64,000 nt of DNA, taken from NCBI RefSeq assembly GCF_029350975.1, contig NZ_JARKMR010000005.1, positions 124,001 through 188,000 of the forward strand, read 5' to 3'. Numbering within the stretch: the stretch's first letter is position 1; every line of letters begins with the position of its first letter. Both the position numbers and the translations under genes were made by a program. Origin of the DNA: Maribacter zhoushanensis (GTDB lineage Bacteria > Bacteroidota > Bacteroidia > Flavobacteriales > Flavobacteriaceae). A model generated the notes under the pieces. It worked only from the letters and a program-made list of their open reading frames with translations. It was not told where the DNA came from and searched no databases. Shown piece by piece: positions 3,034 to 17,595 of the stretch.

Positions 3034-3077
3034 CAAAGAACGTATAAAGGACATCAATATAAAGTAACAATAGTTAC
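3034..3077 (-). promoter_or_regulatory. Regulon A operator and promoter for yeeE/yedE
   Basis: Perfect inverted repeat GTAACAATAGTTAC at 3064-3077. Reading toward the gene, a weak -7 box GTTCTTTG lies at 3041-3034, its 3' end 36.5 bases from the palindrome centre, the same spacing as the other sites. Only the TTTG half of the box matches, as expected for an activator-dependent promoter. Confidence 0.75.
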
Positions 3078-3131
3078 ATAGTTATATTCCAAACAAGGTT
3101 ATGATGTTTAAGTGTCTAATAGTGAGTGATT

Positions 3132-3431
3132 TTAGCTATTGTTAAGTTTTTGATAAACTATTTTTGCAACGACCAAAGCTAAACAGCCACCTAATGTGGA
3201 TACTACTAAATTAATGGTTAATAGTGAGCTGCTAAAATCGCCGTCTTCTATTATATACCAAGCGTTAAAGCCTAATCTACCAAAGGTTTGAATGACGAGA
3301 ATACTGCCAAATACACCTATAAGCGTGTTTCCGGTGACACCAAATGAATAGTGCTTAAACATCAACCCCATAATATTTGCAGCTATAATACCCATAGCTA
3401 TGCTTAAAAGAGAAATTAATGAGCCAGTCAT
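3132..3431 (-). CDS. Small integral membrane protein, third gene of the cydAB operon
   Basis: 99 residues with three hydrophobic segments (about 3-24, 31-50, 68-92). The second, GVTGNTLIGVFGSILV, resembles the glycine-rich segment of the GlsB/YeaQ transglycosylase-associated family, but the match is loose. It begins 15 bases after the cydB stop on the same strand and so is very likely cotranscribed with cydAB. It is much longer than CydX, which is about 40 residues with one span, so it should not be called CydX. Function unknown; a role in assembly or stability of the bd oxidase is possible only by position. Confidence 0.65.
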   Translation of the reverse strand: MTGSLISLLSIAMGIIAANIMGLMFKHYSFGVTGNTLIGVFGSILVIQTFGRLGFNAWYIIEDGDFSSSLLTINLVVSTLGGCLALVVAKIVYQKLNNS

Positions 3432-3446
3432 TATTATAAAATTTTT

Positions 3447-4523
3447 TTAATGCTCTCCATAGCCCACGTCATCCATTTTACCGTTGAAAATGCGGTATTG
3501 TACAAACATGTAAACGGCAACTAAAACTATGGCAATGGCAAACCAGTAAACACCAACGGATAATCCGTATTCATCAGCTGCCACGTTATAAATAGTCAAT
3601 GATGGGTTTATAGAATTGGTAGATGGTAATACTTTTGGAAAAATAGAAGCCGCCGTAGAGGCAAAACCACCAAACAGAAATAAAGCCGAAAAGAGAAAAC
3701 CATATCCGTCTTTTTTAAATTTTTTAATCCAAAATTGACCAACAAGACCTGTTATAGTAATAGTAGGGAAAAGCCATAGAAAAGGTTTGTCAAGAAAATT
3801 TGTAAATGGTTTAGGTTCTATGATATGCCAAATAAGTATTGAAGTAATTACAAGTGCCAACAATACAAAATTCAATTTAAAAATTATTGATTTTAATCTA
3901 GTATTCAATTCTGCATTGGTCTTAAAAATAATCCAGTTAGCACCATGTATGGTAAGTGCAACCACACTAATGATACCTAGCAATAAGGTAAACCAATCTA
4001 TAATACCTAAATGTTCTGCCGTGGGACTAAAGGTGGGGTTCCATAGGGGTAAAAAGAAGTAATGGGCTTCATAGGCAGATTCTCCATTTTCTACCATACC
4101 TAAATTTACACCACGTACAACATTGCCTAAAGCTACACCAAAAAATAGTGCTAGTAACAAGCTTGCTATACCAAAAGCCTTGTCCCAAATAGACTCCCAC
4201 ATCTCGTTATGGTATTGCCCCCTAAGTTCTAGACCAATGGCTCTAAAAATAAGCAACCATAAAATCATTATTAGCGGTAAGTAAAAACCACTAAAAGAAG
4301 ACGCATACAGGGTAGGGAAAGCAAAAAATAAAACTCCACCAGATGCAATTAACCAAACCTCATTGGCATCCCAAAAAGGACCTATAGCGTTAGTTACCGC
4401 TTTTTTATCTTTTTCTTTTTTAGCAAAGAACAGATGTACTATACCAGCACCAAAATCGTAACCATCTAGAATGACGTACATACCAAGCATGCCCATTAAA
4501 ACAATGTACCAGAATAATTCCAT
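3447..4523 (-). CDS. cydB: Cytochrome bd ubiquinol oxidase subunit II
   Basis: 358 residues, multi-spanning membrane protein with the CydB signature near the N-terminus (MYVILDGYDFGAG) and the conserved GPFWDANEVWL segment. Subunit II pairs with CydA in the inner membrane and helps form the oxygen-reducing complex; length is typical (E. coli about 380). The gene starts three bases after the cydA stop. The bd oxidase is known in E. coli to keep working in sulfide, which fits its predicted co-regulation with sulfide-handling genes here. Confidence 0.95.
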   Translation of the reverse strand: MELFWYIVLMGMLGMYVILDGYDFGAGIVHLFFAKKEKDKKAVTNAIGPFWDANEVWLIASGGVLFFAFPTLYASSFSGFYLPLIMILWLLIFRAIGLELRGQYHNEMWESIWDKAFGIASLLLALFFGVALGNVVRGVNLGMVENGESAYEAHYFFLPLWNPTFSPTAEHLGIIDWFTLLLGIISVVALTIHGANWIIFKTNAELNTRLKSIIFKLNFVLLALVITSILIWHIIEPKPFTNFLDKPFLWLFPTITITGLVGQFWIKKFKKDGYGFLFSALFLFGGFASTAASIFPKVLPSTNSINPSLTIYNVAADEYGLSVGVYWFAIAIVLVAVYMFVQYRIFNGKMDDVGYGEH

Positions 4524-4526
4524 AAT

Positions 4527-5858
4527 TTATAAGTTTTGAAGTTCAGGTCCTTTTTTTATGATTTTACCGGCGAGAATTAAAAATAACATTCCCAGCAATA
4601 AATACAGCCCTATAAATCCTAAAAGGGTAAACAGCGTATTGCCTGCAGATACGGTAGGTGAAGCACCTTCAGAGGTTCTTAGCAGGTTATATACCAACCA
4701 GGGTTGGCGTCCAAGTTCAGCAGTGTACCAACCAGTGGTATTTGCAATGTATGGAAAAGGAAGCATGAACATGATAGACCATAAGATCCACTTGCTAGTA
4801 TATAATTTTTTACGCCATAGTTGAAAAGCAGCTATACCCATTAAGCCTATGAAAATAGTTCCCAAGCCAACCATAATATGATAAGAATAGTATAATCCAG
4901 GTATATTTGTAGGGTAGTCTTTTTCATCGAACTCATTTAGACCTTTTATTTGGGCATGCCACTTTTGATACGTTAGAAAGCTAAGTACATTGGGAACGGC
5001 AATTTTATTGTCCAGTTTTTTGAACTCCATATCTGGTTGCCCGATCAATACAATTTCAGAACCACCTTCTTCAGTTTCAAAAATACCTTCCATTGCAGCA
5101 AATGTCACAGGTTGATATTTTACTACATTTTTTGCCACAAGATCACCAGTTGGGAATGCAACAAGTACAGAAGACACCAATCCGAAAATTACACCGGTTT
5201 TAAGAAATAATTTACCAAATTCATTATGCTTCTTACTTAACAAATAAAAAGCACCAATGCTCGCTACTACAAAAGAAGCCGTTATAACGGAAGCTAATTG
5301 GTTGTGCAAATAAGATGGTAGTAACCACGGATTAGAAAATAATGCACCAAAATTATTTAAAACAAATTTTCCGTTTTCTAAAATTTCAAAACCTACAGGG
5401 TTCTGCATCCATGAATGTGTAGCAATTATAAGATAACCACTGGCCCATGAACCTAGAAATACTAAAAAGCCAGTTAAGAAATGCAGCTTTTGACCCATTA
5501 ATTTTTCTCCGAAAAGAAAGAGACCTAAAAATGATGATTCCAAGAAAAAAGAGAACATACCTTCCATAGCAAGTGTCTGTCCTATTATTCCACCTGTAAG
5601 TTCAGAGAATTTTGCCCAGTTAGTCCCAAACTGAAATTCCATAGGTATACCCGTGACTACACCCATAGCAAAATTAAGAGCGAAAATTTTCATCCAAAAT
5701 TTAGCGGCATCATTATATTTTATAATTTGAGTTCTAAGAAATTTCCATTTAAAATAGACGATCATTAATGAAAGCCCCATAGTAAGTTGTGGAAACAAAT
5801 AATGGAAAGTAATAGTGAAAGCAAATTGCATTCGGTCATAGAAAAGCATGTCTTCCAT
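4527..5858 (-). CDS. cydA: Cytochrome bd ubiquinol oxidase subunit I
   Basis: 443 residues. His19 matches the E. coli heme b595/d ligand position, Glu99 and Glu107 match the conserved glutamates of the proton and heme pocket, His185 aligns with a heme b558 ligand, and GRQPW is present near the C-terminus. It oxidises quinol and reduces oxygen to water without pumping protons. The quinol (Q) loop is of the short type, since the chain is well below the 520 residues of the long E. coli form. First gene of the operon cydA-cydB-small membrane protein, preceded by a regulon A palindrome. Confidence 0.96.
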   Translation of the reverse strand: MEDMLFYDRMQFAFTITFHYLFPQLTMGLSLMIVYFKWKFLRTQIIKYNDAAKFWMKIFALNFAMGVVTGIPMEFQFGTNWAKFSELTGGIIGQTLAMEGMFSFFLESSFLGLFLFGEKLMGQKLHFLTGFLVFLGSWASGYLIIATHSWMQNPVGFEILENGKFVLNNFGALFSNPWLLPSYLHNQLASVITASFVVASIGAFYLLSKKHNEFGKLFLKTGVIFGLVSSVLVAFPTGDLVAKNVVKYQPVTFAAMEGIFETEEGGSEIVLIGQPDMEFKKLDNKIAVPNVLSFLTYQKWHAQIKGLNEFDEKDYPTNIPGLYYSYHIMVGLGTIFIGLMGIAAFQLWRKKLYTSKWILWSIMFMLPFPYIANTTGWYTAELGRQPWLVYNLLRTSEGASPTVSAGNTLFTLLGFIGLYLLLGMLFLILAGKIIKKGPELQNL

Positions 5859-5889
5859 AGTCTAAATTCTTTTCAATTTTTTTTATATG

Positions 5890-5932
5890 TAAAGGTATAA
5901 TTCACATGATAATTAAAGGTAACCAATGTTAC
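5890..5932 (-). promoter_or_regulatory. Regulon A operator and promoter for cydAB
   Basis: Perfect inverted repeat GTAACCAATGTTAC at 5919-5932, 61 bases upstream of the cydA ATG. On the minus strand the box TACCTTTA (5897-5890) matches TAnnTTTG except for the last base. Centre to box end is 35.5 bases, one base less than at the other sites. Confidence 0.8.
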
Positions 5933-6060
5933 ATTTAAAGGCGAATAATTATGGTAAATATGTTTTAAAATTCATGTAATGAAAACAGGTTTAGTTTTAA
6001 TCTAAAAATCACCTATTCAAAAGGTTGTTCTATATTTTTCTTAAAATGATAGTAAAAAAA

Positions 6061-6092
6061 ATCCCCAAAACTTGTTTAGCAAATTTTGGGGA
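6061..6092 (-). terminator. Rho-independent terminator after dps
   Basis: Perfect 10-base-pair stem ATCCCCAAAA / TTTTGGGGAT with a 12-base loop, followed on the minus strand by a run of seven T (complement of 6054-6060). It lies just downstream of the dps stop. Confidence 0.85.
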
Positions 6093-6114
6093 TATAAAAG
6101 ATATTTTTGAGAAT

Positions 6115-6594
6115 TTAGTCTTGATAGGCAGATAGCATCCAAACCAATTTCTCTTGTTCGGTAATATAATCGCTCATTAAAGAAACAGTGCCTTCATCCT
6201 CGGCTTCGGCAGCTATTTTTAGGGTAGCTCTTTCTTTTTTTAAAAGTATGCTTAAACTATCTAAAATGTTGTCTATAGCTTCATCGCCATCAACTACATT
6301 TTCACTAGCCTCTATTTCAGATTGTTCAATATATTTGGTAAACGTATGTATTGGAGTGTTGCTCAAGGTTAGCACTCGTTCTGCAATTTCATCAACCTTG
6401 ATTAAGGCATCATTATAAAGTTCCTCGAATTTCAAATGAAGCTCAAAAAACTTTCGACCCTTAATATTCCAATGAAAACCCCTAAGGTTCATATAAAACA
6501 TTTGGTAATTTGATAATAGGTCATTTAAATGTGTTGCAATATCGTTTGAATCTTCTGTATTTAATCCAATCTTCGATAAACTTGAATTTGCCAT
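6115..6594 (-). CDS. dps: Dps-family DNA-binding/iron-storage protein
   Basis: 159 residues, all-helical ferritin-like. The ferroxidase-site pattern of Dps is visible: the GFHWNIKG segment, then FFELHLKFEELY, then KVDEIAERVLTL. Dps forms a dodecamer that oxidises Fe(II) with hydrogen peroxide and stores the mineral, protecting DNA. The N-terminus lacks a lysine-rich tail, so direct DNA binding is uncertain. Monocistronic: a strong terminator follows, and a hairpin separates it from the DsrE gene upstream. No regulon A or B palindrome is seen in front of it. Confidence 0.93.
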   Translation of the reverse strand: MANSSLSKIGLNTEDSNDIATHLNDLLSNYQMFYMNLRGFHWNIKGRKFFELHLKFEELYNDALIKVDEIAERVLTLSNTPIHTFTKYIEQSEIEASENVVDGDEAIDNILDSLSILLKKERATLKIAAEAEDEGTVSLMSDYITEQEKLVWMLSAYQD

Positions 6595-6661
6595 TGTTAA
6601 TATTTAAAAGTTATAGTAATGTAATCTTTTCAAAAGTCGCTTTTGTATGTAAACCTTACGC

Positions 6662-6679
6662 CTTATCTAAATAGATAAG
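6662..6679 (-). terminator. Hairpin directly after the DsrE-family gene
   Basis: Stem CTTATCT / AGATAAG with a four-base loop, three bases beyond the stop codon of the DsrE gene. The run of T after it on the minus strand is short, so it could be a weak terminator or an RNA-stabilising hairpin. Confidence 0.45.
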
Positions 6680-6682
6680 TGC

Positions 6683-7210
6683 TTACGGCATAAAAATATA
6701 TCCGTCCATTTGATAATTGGCAAGAACCATCATTGCGGATAATCCTAATTCTGTATTCGGGTTTAAATCTGCAGCGCTAATATCTCTTGCGGCAGCAGCT
6801 TGCGCGCAAACATAAAATTCTACTCCGTAATCTTTTAATAATTTTATTACAGCTTCATTTGGGTTTGCCTTTTCATATTTAGCCTTGTATTTAGTTTCGT
6901 TTAAAGCAGTGAAAGTGGCACCACCATGTACAGCAGCGATGATATTTACTTTATCGGCAGAAACGCCCCCTGCACCTAGCATATTAATCATTCTTGCAAT
7001 TTTAAAATAACCAATATTAATGCCATCCAACTCACGCTCATCTTTTAGGTCAAAAACAAGTTTATATTCTTTGTTAGGGTCAGGTTGTATGGCTACCTCT
7101 TTGAATTCCTTAATTTTTCCATAACCTTCTATTATAGGTGTTGTCCATTCTTGTGCCGTTGTAAGTTGTACTGCCATAATCGCTATAATAAGTAAAAGTG
7201 TTTTTCTCAT
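6683..7210 (-). CDS. Exported DsrE/DsrF-family protein
   Basis: 175 residues with a clear signal peptide (MRKTLLLIIAIMAVQLTTAQ), so periplasmic. The DsrE/F-like fold is indicated by the AAVHGGATF turn and a conserved cysteine, Cys135 in EFYVCAQAAAARDI. Cytoplasmic DsrE/TusD proteins carry persulfide on this cysteine; exported versions are common in Bacteroidota and their exact role is not established. Its neighbour across the divergent promoter is the TsdA-type cytochrome. Leftward from the 7318-7331 palindrome a weak box TACTTTCA lies at the standard spacing (7295-7288), so it may be a divergent member of regulon A. Confidence 0.85.
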   Translation of the reverse strand: MRKTLLLIIAIMAVQLTTAQEWTTPIIEGYGKIKEFKEVAIQPDPNKEYKLVFDLKDERELDGINIGYFKIARMINMLGAGGVSADKVNIIAAVHGGATFTALNETKYKAKYEKANPNEAVIKLLKDYGVEFYVCAQAAAARDISAADLNPNTELGLSAMMVLANYQMDGYIFMP

Positions 7211-7317
7211 GTGCTCGTTATATTTAAAATGAATGATTTGTTGGTTTAATAATATGAGTTACTAATGTCCGTAATTTTAGAAAAGAATGAAAGTAAGTTA
7301 AAGCATTTAACGCAAGT

Positions 7318-7361
7318 GTAACTATTGTTACATCAATAAACTTTCAATATTTATAGATTCG
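7318..7361 (+). promoter_or_regulatory. Regulon A operator and promoter for tsdA
   Basis: Perfect inverted repeat GTAACTATTGTTAC at 7318-7331. A box TAGATTCG at 7354-7361 (one mismatch to TAnnTTTG) ends 36.5 bases from the centre, predicting a transcript start near 7368 and a short leader before the ATG at 7392. Confidence 0.82.
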
Positions 7362-7391
7362 TTATTTAAATTAGCGTAAGATTACATTTCT

Positions 7392-8429
7392 ATGGGTGAT
7401 TTACGAATTTTAGCGAAACAACTATTTAAGCTCTTTACAATTGTGTTTGTGTTAGTAGGGCTAGTCTTTATATGGCTTTTGAACTATGAGCCTACTAAAG
7501 AAAGTGAAGAAACAATACAAGTAAAGGATATTGTAGTTATTGACAAATGGCAACCCAAAGATGCAATCGCTGAAATTAAGAATATGTCGACGGTGGTCAA
7601 AAAAGGCTATTATTTAATAGCTGAGACTTCAAAATATATGGGTCCCAATGCAGCCCGTGCCGAAGATAGATATAGCGGTAATAATTTGGCTTGTGCCAAT
7701 TGTCATTTACAAAAAGGAGCTCAGGCAGGTTCAGGGTCATGGGTAGGTATTTTAGAGAGATTTCCACAGTTTGGTGGTAGGGGCAATAAAGTGGGTACTA
7801 TTCAAGATAGAATTAATGGGTGCATGGAGCGCAGTATGAATGGAAAAATGCTTCCGTCAGACTCAGATAAATTGGTGGCCATAGTAGCTTATATGGATTG
7901 GTTGAGTGAAGGGGTGCCAGAGGATAGAAAGGCCGAGTTTAAAGGATACCCAAAAATAAAGATACCTGCTGTAGCTGTGAATTTAGAAAAAGGAAGACAG
8001 GTATATCAAAAAGAATGTGTTATCTGTCATGGGGAAAATGGAGCGGGAGTTCTCAATGCTATTGATGGTAAAAGCTACACGTATCCACCACTATGGGGTC
8101 CAGATAGTTTTAACGATGGTGCAGGTATGAATAGAGTAATCACTTCGGCAGAATTTATTAAGAGTAATATGCCCTATTTACAAGCGACCTGGGATAACCC
8201 TAAACTGACCGACGAAGAAGCGTATCATGTAGCAGGATATATTAATAGTTTCTCTAGGCCACATAAATTGAATACTGTAAACGATTATCCTGATAAGAAG
8301 CTAAAACCAGTCTCTACACCCTACGGACCGTGGGTAGATGATTTTTCTCCAGAGCAACATAAAAATGGACCATTTTTACCAATAATGGATTTCTATAAAG
8401 AGAAATACGGAATCACTAAAACAAAGTAA
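7392..8429 (+). CDS. tsdA: TsdA-like diheme thiosulfate dehydrogenase, membrane-anchored
   Basis: 345 residues: an N-terminal membrane anchor (about 12-31) and two cytochrome c domains with heme motifs CANCH (101-105) and CVICH (209-213). Cys144 in DRINGCMERSMNG matches the unusual cysteine axial heme ligand that marks TsdA, and Met260 in SNMPY is a likely ligand of the second heme. TsdA converts two thiosulfate to tetrathionate, or the reverse in some organisms. Here it has an uncleaved anchor rather than a cleaved signal. No TsdB cytochrome is adjacent; instead an outer-membrane barrel gene starts four bases after its stop. Direction of the reaction cannot be read from sequence. Confidence 0.88.
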   Translation: MGDLRILAKQLFKLFTIVFVLVGLVFIWLLNYEPTKESEETIQVKDIVVIDKWQPKDAIAEIKNMSTVVKKGYYLIAETSKYMGPNAARAEDRYSGNNLACANCHLQKGAQAGSGSWVGILERFPQFGGRGNKVGTIQDRINGCMERSMNGKMLPSDSDKLVAIVAYMDWLSEGVPEDRKAEFKGYPKIKIPAVAVNLEKGRQVYQKECVICHGENGAGVLNAIDGKSYTYPPLWGPDSFNDGAGMNRVITSAEFIKSNMPYLQATWDNPKLTDEEAYHVAGYINSFSRPHKLNTVNDYPDKKLKPVSTPYGPWVDDFSPEQHKNGPFLPIMDFYKEKYGITKTK

Positions 8430-8433
8430 CCCC

Positions 8434-9768
8434 ATGCGATTAATATATCTGCTCATTTTTTGTCTGCCTATATTTTCTAAGGCACAAGATTCTGTTGCGG
8501 TAAAGAAAAAAGGCACATTATCTGGGCAATGGCGAACCTATTATATGATGACGTCAAATAAAGGGGAATTGAAAGATTTTCATGCATTGGCAACGGGTGG
8601 TAAAATAAAGTACGAGTATAAATTATTAAAGAATTTAGAATTAGGAGTGGCCCTTTACAACTCAACCAATATTGGCTTACAAGATTTGAAGGCACCTGAT
8701 GCCACCACAGGAAGAATAAGTAGGTATGAAGAAGGGTTATTTGATAGGCTGGATTTAAGTAATGATGCTCTCTTTTTATTGGGAGAACTGTATGCGAAAT
8801 ATCACCTAGCTCAGCATTCATTTGCGCTTGGGCGGATGAAAATTAATACACCGTTGATTAACCCAGAAGATGGCAGAATGATACCTACTTTGGTCCAAGG
8901 GTTTTGGTATAATTTTAATGTAGAAAAAACAAAGTTTCAATTAGGTGTACTAAATGAAATAGCACCAAGATCTACCGGAGAGTTTTATGGAATAGGAGAA
9001 AGCATAGGAACTTACCCCGTAGGTAGGAACAAATTAGGTACGGCATCGCGGTATGCCAATAATACGGCATCTGATTATATACTATTGGCAAATGTGGATT
9101 ATAAGATAACCGATAAATTTAAAGTGAATATATGGAATCAATTTGTAGATAATATATCGAATTCTATCTATTTAAAACCATCTTATAGTATATCTGAATC
9201 ATTGATGTTAGAAGGGGAGTGGTTGCATCAAAATAAACTGGGTAATGGTGGAAGCAGTGTAGACTCGCTTCGCTATTACAACCAAAATTCTGCAGATATA
9301 GTAGGATTAAAAATTGCTCATGAAAGCAAAGCAGGACTGCTATCTTTGGCATACAATAGAATATTACCCCATGGTCAATTTATCTCGCCAAGAGAATGGG
9401 GTAGAGAAGACCTTTTTAGTTTTCAAAAGCGAGAACGTAGCGAAGGTTCTGCAGATAATCATGCATTGGTTCTAAATTATAAAGAAGACTTTGCATTGTT
9501 AAATGATCTAAATCTTATATCTATATTAAGTATTGGTAAGCACTGGAAACCAGATCCAACCAATGCTGTTTTAAATAAATATGCTATGCCAGATTACACG
9601 CATATAAATCTAGATATTTTCTTCAATATTAAAAAGCTGAAGCGTTTAAGACCAGAGCTATTATTGACCTCTAAAATAGGAAATGGTGATATACCAGATA
9701 ATCCTAATTTATTTTTTAATAAGGTAGATATGTTTCATTTAGATGTCATTCTAAACTATAATTTTTAG
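8434..9768 (+). CDS. Outer-membrane beta-barrel (porin-like) protein cotranscribed with tsdA
   Basis: 444 residues with a signal peptide ending near residue 17 (FSKAQ), long alternating beta-strand patterns and a terminal phenylalanine (LNYNF), the usual outer-membrane barrel ending. It resembles OprD/DcaP-like or alginate-export-like porins in general architecture; no substrate residues can be named. The four-base gap to tsdA implies one operon, so a role in passage of thiosulfate or tetrathionate through the outer membrane is a reasonable inference, not a demonstrated one. Confidence 0.8.
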   Translation: MRLIYLLIFCLPIFSKAQDSVAVKKKGTLSGQWRTYYMMTSNKGELKDFHALATGGKIKYEYKLLKNLELGVALYNSTNIGLQDLKAPDATTGRISRYEEGLFDRLDLSNDALFLLGELYAKYHLAQHSFALGRMKINTPLINPEDGRMIPTLVQGFWYNFNVEKTKFQLGVLNEIAPRSTGEFYGIGESIGTYPVGRNKLGTASRYANNTASDYILLANVDYKITDKFKVNIWNQFVDNISNSIYLKPSYSISESLMLEGEWLHQNKLGNGGSSVDSLRYYNQNSADIVGLKIAHESKAGLLSLAYNRILPHGQFISPREWGREDLFSFQKRERSEGSADNHALVLNYKEDFALLNDLNLISILSIGKHWKPDPTNAVLNKYAMPDYTHINLDIFFNIKKLKRLRPELLLTSKIGNGDIPDNPNLFFNKVDMFHLDVILNYNF

Positions 9769-9780
9769 ATAATAATCTTA

Positions 9781-10160: not shown

Positions 10161-10204
10161 GTAACATTGGTTACAGTGATTTTGTTATTTAAAAAGTATT
10201 TTTG
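10161..10204 (+). promoter_or_regulatory. Regulon A operator and promoter for the fatty acid hydroxylase gene
   Basis: Perfect inverted repeat GTAACATTGGTTAC at 10161-10174, identical in sequence to the site at 17552. A perfect -7 box TATTTTTG at 10197-10204 ends 36.5 bases from the centre; the ATG follows at 10222. Confidence 0.85.
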
Positions 10205-10221
10205 CAAAAAGCGTTATAGTA

Positions 10222-11097
10222 ATGAAAGCATATTTAGATGCCTTTTTAAATGCAATTACAGGAACTTTAAGTTGGACATGGAAATCCATTATTTTCGAAG
10301 TGCCCTGGTACCTAAATTACTTCTGGGGACTCATTCTAATTTCCTTGATTGTATGGTCATTAGAAATTGTTTTTCCTTGGAGAAAACAGCAGGGTGTATT
10401 TAGAAAAGACTTTTGGTTAGACGGTTTTTATATGTTCTTTAATTTCTTTCTATTCGCCATAGCCATAAGTGGTATTTATAAATTATTACAGGTTTTTTTT
10501 AATGATATTGGTATAAAAGCAAATAGTTTAGCGATCATAGATATATCTGCCTGGCCAATGTGGGGTCAATTACTATTATTTTTTATCGTTCTAGATTTTG
10601 TACAATGGTTCACGCATACCTTATTGCACAAGTATGCTTTTCTTTGGAAATTTCATCAAGTTCACCACAGTGTCAAAGAAATGGGTTTTGCGGCGCATTT
10701 ACGATACCATTGGATGGAAAACTTATTATACAAACCTTTAAAAACTTTTGGTGTAATGATTCTTGGTGGTTTTGAACCCGAGCAAGCCTATATTGTACAT
10801 TTTGCAGCAATTGCCATTGGGCATTTTAATCATTCTAATATAAAGATTACATGGGGACCTTTAAAATATATAGTAAACAACCCGGTAATGCACCTATATC
10901 ATCACGCCTATGATTTACCTGAGGGTACTTATGGTGTAAATTTTGGTATTAGCCTAAGTCTTTGGGATTATATATTTAAAACCAATTACATACCAGAAGA
11001 TAGTGGTGATGTAAGATTAGGTTACCCGGGTGATGAAGATTTACCACAAAACTTTTTAGGACAAATAACCCATGGTTTCAAAGCAAAGAAGAAGTAA
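10222..11097 (+). CDS. Sterol desaturase / fatty acid hydroxylase superfamily membrane protein
   Basis: 291 residues, several membrane spans, and the three histidine boxes of the diiron hydroxylase superfamily: HTLLH with WKFHQVHHS, GHFNHSN, and HLYHHAY near the C-terminus. Members use oxygen and a diiron centre to hydroxylate or desaturate lipids; the substrate is unknown. It is monocistronic, driven by a regulon A promoter, and ends inside a bidirectional terminator. An oxygen-using lipid enzyme in a sulfur/low-oxygen regulon is unexpected and hints at membrane remodelling. Confidence 0.88.
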   Translation: MKAYLDAFLNAITGTLSWTWKSIIFEVPWYLNYFWGLILISLIVWSLEIVFPWRKQQGVFRKDFWLDGFYMFFNFFLFAIAISGIYKLLQVFFNDIGIKANSLAIIDISAWPMWGQLLLFFIVLDFVQWFTHTLLHKYAFLWKFHQVHHSVKEMGFAAHLRYHWMENLLYKPLKTFGVMILGGFEPEQAYIVHFAAIAIGHFNHSNIKITWGPLKYIVNNPVMHLYHHAYDLPEGTYGVNFGISLSLWDYIFKTNYIPEDSGDVRLGYPGDEDLPQNFLGQITHGFKAKKK

Positions 11098-11117
11098 TTT
11101 ATATTACTTCTTCTTTG
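11084..11117. terminator. Bidirectional terminator between convergent genes
   Basis: Perfect 15-base-pair inverted repeat CAAAGAAGAAGTAAT / ATTACTTCTTCTTTG with a four-base loop. It contains the stop codon of the fatty acid hydroxylase gene and lies six bases from the stop of the HMA gene on the other strand. Confidence 0.75.
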
Positions 11118-11122
11118 TGTGA

Positions 11123-11392
11123 TTAATTAGATAGTTTACCCGTGGCGCAACTTACATAAGATTTAGCTTTTGAAAGCATAGAGTTATCATCATCTAAACT
11201 AGGATAACCTATTAATTTTAATTTTGTTTTTGCGAGTAGTATATCTTCTGGTTTCAAAGCATCAAAAGAGACCGATGACGATTCTACAGATACCGCTACA
11301 TTGGTAATTGTTGCTATCTCCTCTAATTTTGAAACGATTGTTTTGGCACAACCGCCACATTTTAAATTTTGAATAGGAATTACTGATGTCAT
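11123..11392 (-). CDS. Heavy-metal-associated (HMA) domain protein
   Basis: 89 residues, with the metal site Cys12-Gly-Gly-Cys15 in LKCGGCAKTI and the beta-alpha-beta pattern of CopZ/Atx1-type proteins. Such domains carry Cu(I) or another soft metal; the usual Met before the site is replaced. A C-terminal extension of about 20 residues contains another cysteine (YVSCATG). It starts three bases after the stop of the Tll0287-like gene, so the two form an operon. Copper delivery to an oxidase or simple metal buffering are both possible. Confidence 0.85.
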   Translation of the reverse strand: MTSVIPIQNLKCGGCAKTIVSKLEEIATITNVAVSVESSSVSFDALKPEDILLAKTKLKLIGYPSLDDDNSMLSKAKSYVSCATGKLSN

Positions 11393-11395
11393 ATT

Positions 11396-12037
11396 TTATT
11401 TATTTTGATCGTCTTTAAAACTAATACTCCAAATACCTCTAACCTCATTTTCTGTATAGCCAACAGCCTGGTCATATGGGTATTTATCGTTCAAAAGCTG
11501 TGTAACCTTTGGGTCGATATTTGTTTCTGGTATACCATGGCAATTTAGACACATGGTGTTCGTAACAATAGGGGAATAAAAATTTGTGATTCCATTATCG
11601 TTCGTTAATATAGGTTTATAAGACTCGTTGTTATTAATTTTTGATTTAAAAAATTCAATATATTCAAGCTCTTTTTCGCTTGCTTTATTATTAGTATTTC
11701 TTGGTCTGTCAGTTACTCTCTTAATCTTGGCATGATGTACAATAGCCATACTATCTGTTAATGGATATGCTTTTTCATTACAAAATTCTACAGCACCTAC
11801 AAGACCATTTTTTTGAATGTTTAACATAAGGTTTTGGCCCAATACTTTTTGCGTGCTTTGGGCTATCATTTTACCTTTTTTTAAAAATATACTATCATTT
11901 GTTTCGGTATCAGCATCTTTTATAGAATCATATGAAAATTCATCTTTAGAATTATCAATTGTCTGTTGTTTTCCTTTAGAAAAATCTTTGCAACTAAAAG
12001 CAAAAACAATTGTGAGTAATAAAAATATCTTTTTCAT
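11396..12037 (-). CDS. Tll0287-like (DUF3365) heme-binding lipoprotein
   Basis: 213 residues from the chosen start at 12037 (MKKIFLLL); the frame stays open to 12079, but the longer form would hide the signal peptide. A lipobox ends at Cys16 (FAFSC). The Tll0287-like domain is recognised by the helical AVEFCNEKAYPLT region, the KRVTDRPRN segment and a c-type heme motif CLNCH in the loop NTMCLNCHGIPE. Tll0287-like domains bind heme and are thought to act as redox sensors or electron carriers; precise function here is unknown. It is followed directly by the HMA gene. Confidence 0.85.
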   Translation of the reverse strand: MKKIFLLLTIVFAFSCKDFSKGKQQTIDNSKDEFSYDSIKDADTETNDSIFLKKGKMIAQSTQKVLGQNLMLNIQKNGLVGAVEFCNEKAYPLTDSMAIVHHAKIKRVTDRPRNTNNKASEKELEYIEFFKSKINNNESYKPILTNDNGITNFYSPIVTNTMCLNCHGIPETNIDPKVTQLLNDKYPYDQAVGYTENEVRGIWSISFKDDQNK

Positions 12038-12138
12038 AAATTTATATTTATAGCCAATTCTATAATTTTTAGAACGCATATGATTAACAAATTAATGTAG
12101 GGTATTAAGCAAACCGTTAAATGATTGCTCGTCTACTT

Positions 12139-12486
12139 TTAATTCCAAGAGTTATAACCACCTTTTAAATCAAATACTTGCTCAAAGCCCATTTTTAAAA
12201 GTCTACGAGCTGCTTTTTGACTTCTGGCGCCTGACCTGCAATAAACATAAACAGGCTTTTCTTTATCTAATTTTTCAAAATAATTTTTGAAGTTACCAGA
12301 ATTGAAAAAATCAATGTTTATCGCTTTCTTAATATGGCCGCTATTATATTCTGATGAGGTTCTAACATCAAAAGGTTTTATGTTATTGGCAATAATTTGT
12401 GTGGCATATTCTCTTTTGTCCAACACAGTTATATTGCCTGTAGTTTCTTGTTCTTTATTACCAAAGAGTGTACTTAAAAATGACAT
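12139..12486 (-). CDS. Single-domain rhodanese
   Basis: 115 residues, rhodanese fold with the active-site loop starting at Cys83 in YVYCRSGARS. It should move sulfane sulfur from persulfide or thiosulfate to an acceptor thiol in the cytoplasm. A short N-terminal extension of about 20 residues precedes the domain and there is no signal peptide. It lies between the Tll0287-like gene and the two MBL-rhodanese fusions; a terminator precedes it, so it probably has its own promoter, in which no regulon A palindrome is visible. Confidence 0.9.
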   Translation of the reverse strand: MSFLSTLFGNKEQETTGNITVLDKREYATQIIANNIKPFDVRTSSEYNSGHIKKAINIDFFNSGNFKNYFEKLDKEKPVYVYCRSGARSQKAARRLLKMGFEQVFDLKGGYNSWN

Positions 12487-12521
12487 GATGTTTTGTTTTA
12501 ATTAATACTTAATGATAGAAA

Positions 12522-12548
12522 GAAACGGTCTTGGTATATGACCGTCTC
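12522..12548 (-). terminator. Terminator after the first MBL-rhodanese gene
   Basis: Stem GAAACGGTC / GACCGTCTC with a nine-base loop and one mismatch, in the gap between the fusion gene and the rhodanese gene. On the minus strand it is followed by TTTCTATC. Confidence 0.6.
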
Positions 12549-12572
12549 TTTCAATAACCAACCAATAAAAAA

Positions 12573-13982
12573 TTATAATGTAGTAGGGCAAACAAATTCC
12601 GTTACAGGTATACCAGCTTCTTTAATTGCTTTGAATCCGCCTTTTACATCTATAAGGTTGTGAATACCTCTGCTTTTTAAAATTGAAGAAGCAATCATAC
12701 TTCTATATCCACCGGCACAATGCAGGTAAAAGGATTTACTGTTAGGAAATTCAGCTAAATGATCGTTTAAATAATCTAGCGGAGTGTTCACGGCATCTAT
12801 AATATGCTCAGATAGAAATTCAGATTCTTTTCTAACATCAAAAACAGAAACATTTTCAGTTTCAATTAATTTTTTAAGTCCGGCTGCATTCACTTGACTT
12901 ACGGTATCATATTCCATTGATGCTTTTTTCCAAGCATCGAATCCGCCTTCTAAAAAGCCTAGTGTTCCATCAAAACCAACTCTAGATAATCTAGTTACGG
13001 TTTCTTCTTCCATTCCTAACGGTGTTACCAGTAATATAGGTTGTAGCACATCTGCAATTAGAGCGCCTACCCAAGGGGCAAAACTACCATCTAAACCAAT
13101 AAAGATGGATCGTGGTATGTGTCCTTTTGCAAAATCATCTTGGTGACGAACGTCTAATACTATAGCTCCAGTTTCGTTTGCAGTTGCCTCAAAAGCAGCG
13201 GGCGATAATGCCCTTGTACCACGTTCAAGTACTTTTCCAATATCCTCGTAACCCTCTTTATTCAGTTTTACGTTTAAAGGAAAGTATTGTGGTGGTGGTA
13301 AAAGACCATCAATTACTTCTTCAATGAACTCTTCTTTGGTCATATCTGAACGCAAGGCATAATTCATTTTTTTCTGATTGCCTAAGGTGTCTACAGTTTC
13401 TTTCATCATATTCTTGCCACAAGCAGAACCGGCACCATGAGCAGGATAAACAATTACGTCATCTGCCAAAGGCATAATTTTATTTCGTAAACTATCATAT
13501 AAATAACCAGCAAGATCTCTTTCTGTTAACTCGCCCATTTTTTGAGCAAGATCTGGTCTACCAACATCACCTAAAAACAAAGTGTCTCCGCTGAATATAG
13601 CATGGTCTTTTCCTTTATTATCTTTTAATAGATAGGTAGTACTCTCCATTGTATGACCAGGCGTGTGTAAAGCCGTAATGGTGATATCACCAAGTTGAAA
13701 CACTTGATTGTCAGTAGCAATAATGGCATCAAAAGACGGATTGGCTTTAGGACCGTAAATAATTTGAGCTCCCGTTTCCTTTGCTAAGGTTACATGGCCA
13801 CTTACAAAATCGGCATGAAAATGCGTTTCAAAAATATATTTGATTTTGGCATTATCGGCATTTGCTTTATTAATATAAGGCTGTACTTCTCGTAGAGGAT
13901 CAATAATTGCCACCTCTCCTTTACTTTCAATGTAGTAAGCACCTTGCGCTAGACAGCCGGTATATATTTGTTCTACTTTCAT
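12573..13982 (-). CDS. Persulfide dioxygenase-rhodanese fusion (CstB-like), copy 1
   Basis: 469 residues in three parts. An MBL-fold domain (1-245) has THFHADFVSGH (His54, His56, Asp58), His110, Asp133 and His182, the ligand set of ETHE1-type mononuclear-iron persulfide dioxygenases. A first rhodanese-like domain (about 255-350) has no cysteine where the active loop should be (ILLVTPLG). A second rhodanese (about 365-460) has Cys422 in HCAGGYRS. This MBL, pseudo-rhodanese, rhodanese order is that of Staphylococcus aureus CstB, which turns persulfide into thiosulfate. It has its own regulon A promoter and a close paralogue immediately upstream. Confidence 0.92.
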   Translation of the reverse strand: MKVEQIYTGCLAQGAYYIESKGEVAIIDPLREVQPYINKANADNAKIKYIFETHFHADFVSGHVTLAKETGAQIIYGPKANPSFDAIIATDNQVFQLGDITITALHTPGHTMESTTYLLKDNKGKDHAIFSGDTLFLGDVGRPDLAQKMGELTERDLAGYLYDSLRNKIMPLADDVIVYPAHGAGSACGKNMMKETVDTLGNQKKMNYALRSDMTKEEFIEEVIDGLLPPPQYFPLNVKLNKEGYEDIGKVLERGTRALSPAAFEATANETGAIVLDVRHQDDFAKGHIPRSIFIGLDGSFAPWVGALIADVLQPILLVTPLGMEEETVTRLSRVGFDGTLGFLEGGFDAWKKASMEYDTVSQVNAAGLKKLIETENVSVFDVRKESEFLSEHIIDAVNTPLDYLNDHLAEFPNSKSFYLHCAGGYRSMIASSILKSRGIHNLIDVKGGFKAIKEAGIPVTEFVCPTTL

Positions 13983-14004
13983 ATGCTTTAATTTAGTATT
14001 GAAA

Positions 14005-14048
14005 CAAAAATAAAAATGTAAATACAGCTATACAGTAACTTAGGTTAC
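14005..14048 (-). promoter_or_regulatory. Regulon A operator and promoter for fusion copy 1
   Basis: Perfect inverted repeat GTAACTTAGGTTAC at 14035-14048. On the minus strand a perfect -7 box TATTTTTG (14012-14005) ends 36.5 bases from the centre; the predicted start near 13998 leaves a leader of about 16 bases before the ATG. Confidence 0.85.
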
Positions 14049-14064
14049 ATAGTATTTAGAAATT

Positions 14065-14094
14065 AACAGCTCTGAAGAAGAAATCAGAGCTGTT
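14065..14094 (-). terminator. Terminator between the two fusion genes
   Basis: Perfect 11-base-pair stem AACAGCTCTGA / TCAGAGCTGTT with an eight-base loop, 13 bases past the stop of copy 2. It insulates copy 1, whose operator begins 17 bases further on, so the two paralogues are separate transcription units. Confidence 0.7.
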
Positions 14095-14107
14095 TTTAAA
14101 TGTAGTG

Positions 14108-15523
14108 TTATAATAGTGTCGACGGGCACACATATGCTGTCTTAGGTATGTTTGTCTTTGAAATAGCTTCAAAACCACCTCTAACATCTGTAAAATCTGT
14201 CCAACCTCTTTGCTTTAATATAGATGCAGCTATCATACTTCTATAACCGCCTGCACAATGTAAAACAAACGCATCGTCTTTTGGAAATTGGGCCAAATGC
14301 TGGTTAATTTCATTTAAAGGAATGTTTATGGCACCAACCACATGTTCAGAATCGAATTCGCTCTTTTTTCTAACATCAATAATTAAAGGTTTATCGGCGT
14401 TATATTCAGCTTCTAATCCATCGGCATCAATTCTGTTGCTTACCTCAAAATCTTTTCCTGATTGCTTCCAAGTATCAAAACCACCATCTAAAAAGCCAAC
14501 GGTATTGTCATAGCCAACTCTTGCTAAACGGGTAATGGCTTCTTCTTGCTTGTCTTTGTAAGTGACCAATAAAATCTCTTGTTTAATATCGGGTATCATT
14601 TCACCGACCCATTGGGCAAAACTACCTTCTAAACCAATGTTAATACTATTAGGAATAAAACCTTTTGCAAAATCTTCGGCATTTCTAGTGTCTAAGACCA
14701 AAGCACCTGTTTCATTGGCAACAGCCTCAAAAGCATCTGGTAAAAATGGGGTAGTAGCCCTATCCATAATCTTATCTAAACTTTCATAACCTTGTATATT
14801 CATTAAAACATTTTTAGGGAAATAACCTGGGGGAGTGGTTAATCCTGTCAATAATTCCTTAATGAATTCTTCTTTGGTCATATCTGGGCGTAAAGCATAG
14901 TTTACTTTCTTTTGATGTCCAAGGGTATCAGTAGTTTCTTTACTCATCATCTTACCACAAGCAGAACCTGCGCCATGGTTAGGGTAAACGATTAAATCAT
15001 CATTAAGTGGCATGATTCTATTTCTAAGCGACTCGTATAAATACCCGGCAAGCTTTTCTTCGGTTAAATCTGCAACCACATGTTGTGCCAAGTCTGGTCT
15101 ACCAACATCGCCAATAAATAAGGTGTCACCGGTAATAATACCATGTTCTTTACCGGTCTCATCAATCAAAAGATATGTGGTACTCTCCATAGTATGACCA
15201 GGAGTGTGTATTACTTTTACCTTATAATCACCTAATTCAAATACTTGGTTGTCTTTAGCTGTAGTTGCTTTATATGCAGGTTTTGCACCAGGTCCAAATA
15301 CAATTTCTGCACCTGCTTTCTTTTGTAAATCTAAATGTCCGCTAACAAAATCGGCATGAAAATGAGTTTCAAAAACGTATTTTATTTTTGCATTGTCTTT
15401 CTTGGCCCTGTCTAAATAAGGCTGTACCTCACGCAGTGGGTCAAAGACTGCCGCAACTCCCTTACTTTCTATATAATAGGCTGCATGAGCCAAACATCCG
15501 GTATAAATTTGTTCTATTTTCAT
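14108..15523 (-). CDS. Persulfide dioxygenase-rhodanese fusion (CstB-like), copy 2
   Basis: 471 residues from the ATG at 15523 (MKIEQIYTGC), the same N-terminus as copy 1. The frame is open to an ATG at 15550, but that codon lies inside the predicted -7 box, so it cannot be on the transcript. Domain order and ligands match copy 1: THFHADFVSGH, HTPGHTMES, a GDTLF aspartate and YPNHGAGSACG, then a rhodanese-like domain without its cysteine and a C-terminal rhodanese with Cys423 in HCAGGYRS. It should oxidise glutathione-like or protein persulfide and yield sulfite or thiosulfate. Copies 1 and 2 are clearly paralogous along their full length. Confidence 0.92.
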   Translation of the reverse strand: MKIEQIYTGCLAHAAYYIESKGVAAVFDPLREVQPYLDRAKKDNAKIKYVFETHFHADFVSGHLDLQKKAGAEIVFGPGAKPAYKATTAKDNQVFELGDYKVKVIHTPGHTMESTTYLLIDETGKEHGIITGDTLFIGDVGRPDLAQHVVADLTEEKLAGYLYESLRNRIMPLNDDLIVYPNHGAGSACGKMMSKETTDTLGHQKKVNYALRPDMTKEEFIKELLTGLTTPPGYFPKNVLMNIQGYESLDKIMDRATTPFLPDAFEAVANETGALVLDTRNAEDFAKGFIPNSINIGLEGSFAQWVGEMIPDIKQEILLVTYKDKQEEAITRLARVGYDNTVGFLDGGFDTWKQSGKDFEVSNRIDADGLEAEYNADKPLIIDVRKKSEFDSEHVVGAINIPLNEINQHLAQFPKDDAFVLHCAGGYRSMIAASILKQRGWTDFTDVRGGFEAISKTNIPKTAYVCPSTLL

Positions 15524-15549
15524 GTTGTTGTATGTTTTGATTAGTAGCA

Positions 15550-15593
15550 TAAAATTACCCTTTGTAATAGTCTTATACTGTGACTTTTGTCAC
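15550..15593 (-). promoter_or_regulatory. Regulon A variant operator for fusion copy 2
   Basis: Inverted repeat GTGACTTTTGTCAC at 15580-15593; with its flanks it reads TGTGA-N6-TCACA, the classical CRP consensus. The minus-strand box TAATTTTA (15557-15550) ends 36.5 bases from the centre. It differs from the other regulon A sites at one base in each half. Confidence 0.75.
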
Positions 15594-15605
15594 ATAAGCC
15601 AAAAT

Positions 15606-16406
15606 TTATTTAAAGAATTCCATATAGAAAATAAAGACAGCCATAACAAGAATAAAATAGCCAAAACCTTGCTTTAGTTTTTTACCGTCAATGAAACTAC
15701 TGAGGTAACTACCAATAAAAATACCTACGAATGAGATTGATGTAAAAATGGCAAGAAACTCCCAGTCTATGAGCATTGTCATGGCGTCGCCCAGAAAGAA
15801 ACCCATTAAAGATTTAATGGCAATTATAATTAAAGAGGTGCCTACGGCAACTTTCATTTCAACATTCGCCAAAACCACTAATGCCGGTATAATCAAGAAT
15901 CCGCCTCCTGCACCAATTAGTCCCGTAATGCTACCTACCAATAGTCCTTCTAATAAAATTAAAGGGTAGTTATAGGCAACCACTCCCGTATTCTCAATCT
16001 TCTTTTCTTTTTTAAGCATTGAGTACGCCGCAGGAATCATTAAAATTGCAAATAGACCAAACATGGCCATTCTACGTGTAAATTGAAAATTATCAATTTC
16101 AAATAAAATATTGGGCATTGCCGGTACCACATAATGTCTAACCAACGTTACACCTATTATTGCAGGAATACCAAAAACGATAGCGGTACGCCAATCTACA
16201 TAACCTTTTAAATGTTGTTTCCAGCCACCTACAAGTGCACTGGCACCAACTATAAAGAGAGAATAGGCGGTAGCGGCTTTTTCGTTAATAGAAAAAAGAT
16301 AAGCTAAAACGGGCACAGCAAGAATAGAGCCGCCCCCACCAATAAGACCTAAAGATATACCGATTATTAGGGCACTGATATACCCAAAAATATGCAAGAT
16401 TTCCAT
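15606..16406 (-). CDS. TauE/SafE family sulfur-anion exporter
   Basis: 266 residues, about eight membrane spans in two homologous halves, each with the family glycine motif (LIGGGGSILAVPVLAY early, LIGAGGGFLIIPAL in the middle). TauE/SafE proteins are inner-membrane permeases, several of which export sulfite, sulfoacetate or similar anions. Placed between the two persulfide dioxygenase fusions and the regulator, with its own regulon A promoter, it is a good candidate for expelling sulfite or thiosulfate made by the fusions. Substrate is inferred from context. Confidence 0.88.
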   Translation of the reverse strand: MEILHIFGYISALIIGISLGLIGGGGSILAVPVLAYLFSINEKAATAYSLFIVGASALVGGWKQHLKGYVDWRTAIVFGIPAIIGVTLVRHYVVPAMPNILFEIDNFQFTRRMAMFGLFAILMIPAAYSMLKKEKKIENTGVVAYNYPLILLEGLLVGSITGLIGAGGGFLIIPALVVLANVEMKVAVGTSLIIIAIKSLMGFFLGDAMTMLIDWEFLAIFTSISFVGIFIGSYLSSFIDGKKLKQGFGYFILVMAVFIFYMEFFK

Positions 16407-16424
16407 GTAATATAATTAATATTA

Positions 16425-16468
16425 CAAATGTAAATTGAGTAAGAAACCTGCGCAGTAACAATGGTTAC
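16425..16468 (-). promoter_or_regulatory. Regulon A operator and promoter for tauE
   Basis: Perfect inverted repeat GTAACAATGGTTAC at 16455-16468, starting seven bases past the stop of the regulator gene. On the minus strand a perfect -7 box TACATTTG (16432-16425) ends 36.5 bases from the centre. Confidence 0.85.
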
Positions 16469-16475
16469 AGAGGTA

Positions 16476-17108
16476 TTATAAATCTAATATTTCTAAATAA
16501 TTACGGTGAAGTTTAATTTTACCCATTTCTTCTAACTTCTTTAAAAGTCTAGAAATAACCACTCTAGAGCTATGTAGGTCATAGGCAATATCTTGGTGGG
16601 TACTATGAATAATATTGTCATTTGTTACTCTTGCCTTTTCTTTCAGATAACCAATTAAGCGCTCATCCATTTTTTGAAAAGCAATATTGTCCAAGGTGCT
16701 TAAAAGCTCATTTAATCTAACATGGTAGCTATTAAATACGAAGTTTCTCCAAGATTTGTATTTAGCGGTCCATTCTTCCATTTTCTGAATAGGCACCATA
16801 ATCAATTTGGCATCTGTTTCGGCTATGGCTCTTATTTCACTTTTTTTATCGCCCATACAACATGCCATGGTCATAGAGCAGGTATCACCTTTTTCTAGAT
16901 AATATAAAAGTAACTCATCACCATCTTCATCTTCTCTTAAGATTTTAATGGCTCCAGAAATTAATAAAGGCATACCTCTAATGTAGTCACCGATTTCCAT
17001 GAATTTATAACCTTCTGGCACTTCTTTAAAAGTACCTACTTGTACAATTTCATTGATGAGCTCTTCTTCAAAGATATCTCCGTATTCTTCCTTTAAGTCC
17101 TGAATCAT
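16476..17108 (-). CDS. Crp/Fnr-family transcriptional regulator, proposed master of regulon A
   Basis: 210 residues: an N-terminal cyclic-nucleotide-binding-type beta barrel (about 10-115), a dimer helix (about 118-150) and a winged helix-turn-helix (about 165-210). The barrel has three cysteines, Cys77 and the adjacent pair Cys83-Cys84 (TCSMTMACCMG), and no N-terminal FNR iron-sulfur cluster motif. The recognition helix SSRVVISR keeps the two arginines of CRP (SRETVGR) but has Val where CRP and FNR have the base-reading Glu. The gene is cotranscribed with DUF983 from a promoter bearing the GTAAC palindrome, so it is likely autoregulated. A thiol-based sulfur sensor is inferred. Confidence 0.88.
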   Translation of the reverse strand: MIQDLKEEYGDIFEEELINEIVQVGTFKEVPEGYKFMEIGDYIRGMPLLISGAIKILREDEDGDELLLYYLEKGDTCSMTMACCMGDKKSEIRAIAETDAKLIMVPIQKMEEWTAKYKSWRNFVFNSYHVRLNELLSTLDNIAFQKMDERLIGYLKEKARVTNDNIIHSTHQDIAYDLHSSRVVISRLLKKLEEMGKIKLHRNYLEILDL

Positions 17109-17114
17109 TCTTGG

Positions 17115-17504
17115 TTAATTAATTTTCTTTGCTATTTCTTTATCAAATTTAAAAAATATATTCGCCCAAATAGATTTAGAAACTGCAGCGATCCAGGGCA
17201 TTGCTAATACCAATGCGGTAACTATCACTACAAATAACGCACCTATAGAAAGCTCTAGGCCAAAAAGTAAGGTTAGAACATACGCTGCAGCAGCTACGGC
17301 AATACCAACTGCATAAGACACGTACATAGAACCTGTGTAAAAACTAGGTTCAATGCTATATTTTAAATCACATTTTGGACAACGCTCTTTTACTTTATTG
17401 AAGTTACTTAATTTATAAGGATTAGCCTCAAAGAATTCACCTTTGTGGCAACGTGGGCATTTCAAAAATATAATACTGTACAATTTAGAACCCTGTGGTA
17501 ACAT
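17115..17504 (-). CDS. DUF983 family membrane protein with zinc-ribbon-like cysteines
   Basis: 129 residues. Two Cys-x2-Cys pairs near the N-terminus (KCPRCHKGEFF and ERCPKCDLKY) form a likely zinc ribbon, then FYTGSMYVSYAVG leads into two membrane spans. DUF983 proteins are widespread in Bacteroidota and alphaproteobacteria, with no settled function; some lie beside cytochrome oxidase assembly genes. Here it is first in an operon with the Crp/Fnr regulator (six-base gap), and its promoter shares an operator with hemN. Confidence 0.85.
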   Translation of the reverse strand: MLPQGSKLYSIIFLKCPRCHKGEFFEANPYKLSNFNKVKERCPKCDLKYSIEPSFYTGSMYVSYAVGIAVAAAAYVLTLLFGLELSIGALFVVIVTALVLAMPWIAAVSKSIWANIFFKFDKEIAKKIN

Positions 17505-17521
17505 GCTATTAAATTTAAAAA

Positions 17522-17595
17522 CAAAATTATTAGATCTTACATGTTAGTATTGTAACATTGGTTACATAAGCCTGTCTATTGATCCGTTAGTTTTT
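17522..17595. promoter_or_regulatory. Bidirectional regulon A operator between DUF983-regulator and hemN
   Basis: Perfect inverted repeat GTAACATTGGTTAC at 17552-17565. Leftward, a perfect box TAATTTTG (17529-17522) and, rightward, a near-perfect box TAGTTTTT (17588-17595) both end 36.5 bases from the centre. One operator can therefore drive both transcripts, including the gene of its own presumed regulator. Confidence 0.82.

Follow-up and report, generated by a model that had tools for sequence, protein, structure and literature searches.

A 64,000-nucleotide stretch of Maribacter zhoushanensis DNA (contig NZ_JARKMR010000005.1, positions 124,001 to 188,000; hereafter the window) carries a cluster of sulfur genes, the gene of a Crp/Fnr-family regulator (16476..17108, minus strand) and repeated copies of the palindrome GTAAC-N4-GTTAC. 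With a probability of roughly 0.8, this regulator is a class II activator of sulfide and sulfane-sulfur oxidation that acts through the palindrome and controls its own operon. The site, its phase relative to the promoter, its conservation, its targets and its association with residue 183 of the regulator were computed; from these we infer the binding, activation rather than repression, and the signal.

Seven perfect copies of the palindrome lie outside the main open reading frames (ORFs) of the window, at 3064, 5919, 7318, 10161, 14035, 16455 and 17552, as does a GTGAC-N4-GTCAC variant at 15580. An earlier note on this DNA, made from the letters alone, had listed the same eight sites as intergenic, and their positions and placement were confirmed. 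Its statement that no site occupies a promoter position between 17.6 and 64 kb is correct as far as exact copies go, although an eighth exact palindrome (20774-20787) had gone unlisted; it is coding, lies within ORF 20008-21465 (PAP2/haloperoxidase-like product, by eye) and has no phased -7 box. The eight exact copies compare with a mean of 0.06 and a maximum of 1 in 100 dinucleotide shuffles. Both arms of the proposed extension to TGTAA-N6-TTACA are perfect in three of the seven intergenic copies (7318, 10161, 17552), but the 5' T is absent on the plus strand in the other four. Six of the eight intergenic sites have a -7 promoter box with at most one mismatch at one exact phase facing the annotated gene; the box at 5919 is one base nearer and that at 3064 is weak. 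The predicted operators are as follows.

17552..17565, between DUF983-regulator and hemN, with -7 boxes phased on both sides: 17522-17529 TAATTTTG (minus strand) and 17588-17595 TAGTTTTT (plus strand).
16455..16468, predicted operator of tauE; -7 box TACATTTG at 16425-16432 (minus strand).
15580..15593, the GTGAC-N4-GTCAC variant, predicted operator for the second dioxygenase/rhodanese gene; -7 box TAATTTTA at 15550-15557 (minus strand).
14035..14048, predicted operator of the first dioxygenase/rhodanese gene; -7 box TATTTTTG at 14005-14012 (minus strand).
10161..10174, predicted operator of the fatty-acid-hydroxylase-like gene; -7 box TATTTTTG at 10197-10204 (plus strand).
7318..7331, predicted operator of tsdA; -7 box TAGATTCG, one mismatch, at 7354-7361 (plus strand).
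5919..5932, predicted operator of cydAB; -7-like TACCTTTA at 5890-5897 (minus strand), one base nearer than the usual phase.
3064..3077, predicted operator of the yeeE/yedE pair; weak -7 box GTTCTTTG, two mismatches.

Across the whole genome (4.26 Mb) there are 16 exact palindromes against 13 for the reversed pattern, eight of them in the window and eight in the remaining 4.19 Mb. The excess is therefore local to the cluster and, because nearly all of the likely real sites sit there, genome-wide density is uninformative as a test of the motif. Four of the eight palindromes elsewhere fall within ORFs (L001, L002, L006, L008). L005 stands 48 bp past the end of a gene, and on its far side no ORF reaching 80 amino acids was called; in the 3-kb loci of L004 and L007, no complete ORF covers the site. 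The last, L003 (G000:C11:41165), lies between divergent Dps-like and hydroxylase-like genes and has a -7 box with one mismatch phased toward the Dps-like gene. The palindromes thus define a regulon, as first proposed, but one that is not confined to 15 kb. The two genes around L003 are of the same two kinds as occur in the window. A search of the genome for the site plus a -7 box with up to three mismatches was dominated by chance (75 matches against 122 for the control), and outside the window only its one-mismatch match before the Dps-like gene was used.

Conservation was analyzed in 80 named loci around regulator orthologues, taken from one regulator scan with flanks of up to 10 kb in both directions. 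When all palindromes with two five-base arms and spacers of 0-12 were ranked, GTAAC-N4-GTTAC came first, present in 78 of the 80 loci; the comparison of intergenic with coding copies suggested by the earlier note gave 231 against 8, far from the equal density in genes that would have spoken against the motif. The next-ranked palindromes other than A/T runs are other registers of the same site. The commonest single change between genes is A to G at the third position (10 intergenic, 1 coding).

The intergenic sites share a precise promoter geometry, a feature absent from the earlier note that suggests how the site works. In 180 of 233 sites, a TAnnTT[TA] -7 box begins 29.5 bp away from the centre of the palindrome in one or both directions (both in 7); when the distance was varied between 24.5 and 34.5 bp, each of the ten other phases gave 0 to 13 boxes. 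The strict form TAnnTTTG stands at the exact phase in 106 of 277 oriented site-gene pairs. In the available text of studies on F. psychrophilum and F. johnsoniae, the sigma-A -7 box occupies -12 to -5 (PMC9723704; PMC6847099); with this position taken from the papers, the phase of 29.5 bp would put the site centre at -41.5, the position of a class II activator. A TG follows the site on the promoter side in 91 of 187 cases and on the mirror side in 2 of 187. It falls at -34/-33, so the operator seems to merge into the last bases of the -33 TTTG box. A dimer of the 16476-17108 protein would accordingly be placed on TGTAAC-N4-GTTACA at -41.5 of sigma-A promoters, where the site would replace most of the -33 box and the protein would act as a class II activator. 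The 53 of 233 sites without a phased box count against this promoter model. In one locus (L213, genome G411), a single palindrome has exact -7 boxes on both sides, apparently for two divergent promoters.

The same geometry bears on whether the regulator instead represses these promoters and is released by its signal, in the manner of SqrR, BigR and CstR. These sulfide/persulfide regulators are repressors, and in the source text available further repressors, but also other types, appear among the matches listed. Repression is nevertheless quite unlikely here: the site covers most of the -33 box position, and a single exact phase between site and -7 box is needed for contact with RNA polymerase in activation, not for repression.

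The site follows the regulator from genome to genome. The regulator was found in 126 of 149 genomes of the family (E 1e-20), and at the class level in 126 of 295 genomes (1e-45) and 128 of 396 (1e-52). The exact site combined with TAnnTTTG occurs 193 times in 94 of the 149 family genomes, against one match for the reversed control. Sorted by regulator identity, the combination is present in 76 of the 83 genomes whose regulator is at least 55% identical, in 1 of 8 at 30-39% (the only bin affected by G051, G081 and G096, whose identities were set at 34-35% from E-values) and in 1 of 23 without a regulator match. A scan of 296 genomes of the phylum, in which the control pattern gave no match, found it in 16 of the 30 that belong to the own family (own genome counted), in 1 of 6 from another family of the same order, in 9 of 37 from elsewhere in the class and in 0 of the 223 from beyond the class.

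Two observations weaken this linkage. Only 16 of 35 family genomes with a regulator 40-54% identical hold the combination, and three genomes without a regulator match (G088, G372 and G380) hold one each; G372 and G380 are two of the nine rest-of-class genomes, for which the regulator threshold was 1e-15. The site in G380 (L211) precedes an Hcp-like gene (by eye), which suggests that another Crp/Fnr protein, perhaps HcpR-like, may share the operator. These three genomes would fit a scheme in which a different protein binds the sites and the linked crp-type gene is a bystander. That scheme is highly improbable, given that the sites track the regulator genome by genome and co-vary with a residue of its recognition helix. 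Moreover, of the five PF13545 proteins found in the own genome, only the 16476-17108 product carries the SRVV helix, and the other four have different ones. The choice of this product as the candidate regulator, already made in the earlier note, is thereby supported at the level of sequence.

The recognition helix of the regulator reads SRVVISRLLK, and Val183 is present in 80 of 81 aligned sequences. This residue aligns with Val of NtcA (2xgx) and with Glu of CRP, numbered Glu181, whose site is TGTGA. The description of the operator as a CRP-like site with A for G was therefore apt. A class-wide set of 120 stretches from 117 genomes was hand-picked, mostly as stronger matches on longer contigs, and is not random; one stretch (L289) was left out because no regulator ORF was called. 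In the remaining 119 loci, residue 183 is Val in 59 and Glu in 60. With coding palindromes left out, the Val loci hold 42 GTAAC and 1 GTGAY palindromes and the Glu loci 1 GTAAC and 12 GTGAY (Fisher p 3e-10, for sites that are not independent). Most Glu loci hold neither palindrome, GTGAY being present in 11 of 60. The residue was also read in 30 genomes, from which the 119 loci were partly drawn: among the 12 with Val, 6 hold GTAAC plus box and 1 holds GTGAC plus box, and among the 18 with Glu, 2 (G305, G245) hold GTAAC plus box and 4 hold GTGAC plus box. The GTGAC sites of the Glu genomes precede the same kinds of genes (rhodanese, peroxiredoxin and dioxygenase, by eye), and GTGAT sites stand before the regulator gene itself and the YeeE partner.

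On a tree built without the helix columns, residue 183 changes between Val and Glu six times, at least four of them on supported branches. The best reading of these sequences is a natural one-residue specificity switch between GTAAC and GTGAY. Several exceptions weigh against it, both at single loci (L083 and L307, Glu with GTAAC; L350, Val with GTGAC) and at the level of whole genomes (G245, G187 and G305, where one site lies in front of a gene judged by eye to be TauE-like). Furthermore, the four supported independent pairs yield 2-3 in the same direction and rarely one in the opposite direction, an underpowered comparison (sign test p 0.25); with so few independent pairs in agreement, kinship may also account for the association.

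The genes behind the conserved sites are mostly, judging from their sequences, sulfur genes (TauE, dioxygenase/rhodanese, SQR-like and sulfite dehydrogenase-like), plus the regulator. Target counts give the loci with a site before the gene over the loci with the gene, some genes standing later in an operon; family names come from profile matches or earlier sequence reading. A site precedes TauE in 41/50 loci, the first dioxygenase/rhodanese gene in 36/53, DUF983 in 16/18, the SQR-like gene in 15/17, the YeeE partner in 15/21, the hydroxylase in 14/24, a SorA-like sulfite dehydrogenase in 9/9, a 1-Cys peroxiredoxin in 11/12, hemN in 11/13 and TsdA in 4/4. Shares are lower for the single rhodanese (12/40), a Tll0287-like gene (11/35) and the second dioxygenase (6/21). 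Among targets with a phased box, TauE (36/176) and dioxygenase/rhodanese (33/176) lead, followed by SQR-like and DUF983 genes with 13 each. Conservation in orthologous promoters, named in the earlier note as a check, thus extends to many targets but not to all. The cydAB operator it had included is present in the window and seldom in relatives (2 of 10 loci with cydA). A site stands directly before the regulator gene in only 13 of 79 loci. In the window, DUF983 and the regulator gene form a probable operon, and this operon carries a site, a clue to autoregulation.

These targets suggest a pathway in which an SQR-like protein would convert sulfide to persulfide, the dioxygenase-rhodanese fusions would convert persulfide to sulfite, and sulfite would be exported or oxidized (TauE, SorA-like). 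Thiosulfate would be taken up and oxidized by YeeE/TsuA-like proteins and TsdA. The regulon would further take in peroxiredoxin and the regulator itself and, in Maribacter, cydAB; bd oxidase is sulfide-tolerant.

The regulator has only three cysteines, Cys77, Cys83 and Cys84, all in the beta-roll. Cys77 and Cys83 are present in 81 of 81 and Cys84 in 79 of 81 aligned sequences, a conservation biased by the 80 loci having been found partly via a peptide that includes the cysteine motif. In the class set, found via whole-protein similarity, 77 of 79 regulators have both Cys77 and Cys83, and Cys77 occurs in every regulator aligned, distant sets included. The regulator is most likely activated when reactive sulfur species modify Cys77, perhaps together with Cys83. 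The role of the second cysteine is called into question by its absence from 6 of 20 and 9 of 30 more distant regulators, and by sulfur-gene neighbours being found for 6 of 8 regulators without Cys83 versus 48 of 91 with it. A Cys77-Cys83 dithiol as an obligatory sensor is weakened, since regulators without Cys83 still sit near sulfur genes. In the predicted structure, loop 63-86 mostly has a predicted local distance difference test (pLDDT) score below 50, and the geometry of the cysteines is not readable.

Profile searches place the protein in the Crp/Fnr superfamily (PF00027, PF13545 and PF00325 above cut-offs, with agreeing fold matches). It scores 47.2 bits against the NCBIfam CRP equivalog (cut-off 266) and 39.5 against NtcA (cut-off 244.95). 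The cAMP-contact residues of CRP, as generally known, were not found in its phosphate-binding stretch, where the alignment is uncertain. FNR has N-terminal cysteine ligands and one further Cys, four in all; the Maribacter protein, limited to Cys77, Cys83 and Cys84, has no N-terminal ligands for such a [4Fe-4S] cluster.

The targets also include hemN, cydAB, Dps and the hydroxylase, non-sulfur genes all, which counts against the sulfur reading. The first three make low oxygen or redox stress a real rival signal. The same activator and sites could respond to low oxygen or to redox/nitric oxide stress, like FNR, DNR or HcpR, with sulfur genes induced because sulfide accompanies low oxygen. One orthologue (P0049) is labelled 'anaerobic regulatory protein' in a source, the regulator model resembles FNR and HcpR structures, and the Hcp-like gene of G380 would fit as well. 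This signal is unlikely on balance: the beta-roll cysteines are not FNR-type cluster ligands, TauE and dioxygenase/rhodanese lead the phased-box targets, cydA rarely has the site, and the window encodes a separate Crp/Fnr protein with an N-terminal CENC motif. The latter (about 31051-31740, plus strand) has another recognition helix, is encoded next to P-type-ATPase-like and Usp-like genes (names by eye) and appears from its sequence to be the better candidate for an oxygen-type FNR.

Reactive-sulfur activation through a Crp/Fnr protein can be compared with several known systems. NtcA, the cyanobacterial nitrogen regulator, is also a Crp/Fnr protein, has Val at the CRP Glu position (helix TRVTVTRLL) and acts by class II activation; its consensus GTA-N8-TAC is fitted by GTAAC-N4-GTTAC. 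It differs in its targets, and the ligand loop of the Maribacter regulator is marked by conserved cysteines. E. coli CRP shares the fold, the helix-turn-helix and the inferred -41.5 position, and the Glu183 relatives with GTGAY resemble its TGTGA. Here, however, TGTAA stands for TGTGA, and the CRP stretch GELGLF..RSA, which contacts cyclic AMP (cAMP), is replaced by CSMTMACC..KSE. The best solved relative by sequence, 3dv8 from Eubacterium rectale, has the C-x5-C spacing in the same loop but Glu in the recognition helix. HcpR of Porphyromonas gingivalis, a nitrosative-stress regulator of the same phylum, has the Crp/Fnr fold (9day) but only 15% identity over the structural alignment. SqrR/BigR (ArsR) and CstR (CsoR), as described in the text available, control sulfide/persulfide oxidation genes, and cysteine sensing is proposed here as well, but they belong to other protein families and repress.

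Review text and the matches listed name ArsR, CsoR, MarR and other proteins as sulfide/persulfide regulators; a second review, in its available portions, mentions FNR only as an oxygen sensor. Among the matches listed from the open-access literature there was no named Bacteroidota sulfide-oxidation regulator, no Crp/Fnr sulfur regulator in that phylum and no such operator, although a subscription paper or regulon database could hold one. More tentatively, at somewhat under even odds, the system extends across the class Bacteroidia as a Crp/Fnr reactive-sulfur sensor that, in contrast to the ArsR and CsoR repressors which sense persulfide, is a class II activator. Its operator would be joined to the sigma-A promoter at a single fixed phase, and its GTAAC/GTGAY specificity would have switched several times through a Val/Glu change at one residue of the recognition helix, with the operators changing in step and the regulon staying the same. 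The analysis offers a usable regulon model (operator, spacing, regulator and targets) for a phylum with unusual promoters. It also offers a natural series of Crp-type proteins, apparently altered at one residue in step with their operators; such a series allows direct testing of how transcription-factor specificity evolves.

The genes of the cluster are the following.

2032..3057, minus strand, YeeE/YedE pair, weakly like the thiosulfate transporter TsuA (NCBIfam NF052577, score under cut-off).
3447..5858, minus strand, cydB and cydA, cytochrome bd oxidase (ORFs; names from earlier sequence reading).
7392..8429, plus strand, TsdA/SoxA-like cytochrome c (Pfam PF21342, Cytochrom_C).
10222..11097, plus strand, fatty acid hydroxylase/sterol desaturase-like (name from earlier sequence reading).
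12139..12486, minus strand, single-domain rhodanese (Pfam).
12573..13982, minus strand, metallo-beta-lactamase and two rhodanese domains, persulfide-dioxygenase-like (Pfam).
14108..15550, minus strand, metallo-beta-lactamase and two rhodanese domains, persulfide-dioxygenase-like (Pfam).
15606..16406, minus strand, TauE/SafE sulfite exporter family protein (Pfam PF01925).
16476..17108, minus strand, Crp/Fnr-family regulator of 210 amino acids (Pfam HTH_Crp_2, cNMP_binding, Crp).
17115..17504, minus strand, DUF983 protein, upstream of the regulator on the same strand.
17657..19051, plus strand, hemN, oxygen-independent coproporphyrinogen III oxidase-like (ORF; name from earlier sequence reading).

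At 15523-15550, the first ATG of the second dioxygenase ORF (15550) is touched by its phased -7 box (15550-15557), which makes this start doubtful; translation probably begins at the inner MKIEQIYTG. In the relatives, a secreted-looking protein of 105-125 amino acids stands under site and box in L167, L172, L176 and L189 (the L167 copy, the one scanned, had no Pfam match), and a TolC-like protein (by eye) stands under the site in L162, L163, L165, L166, L174 and L186.

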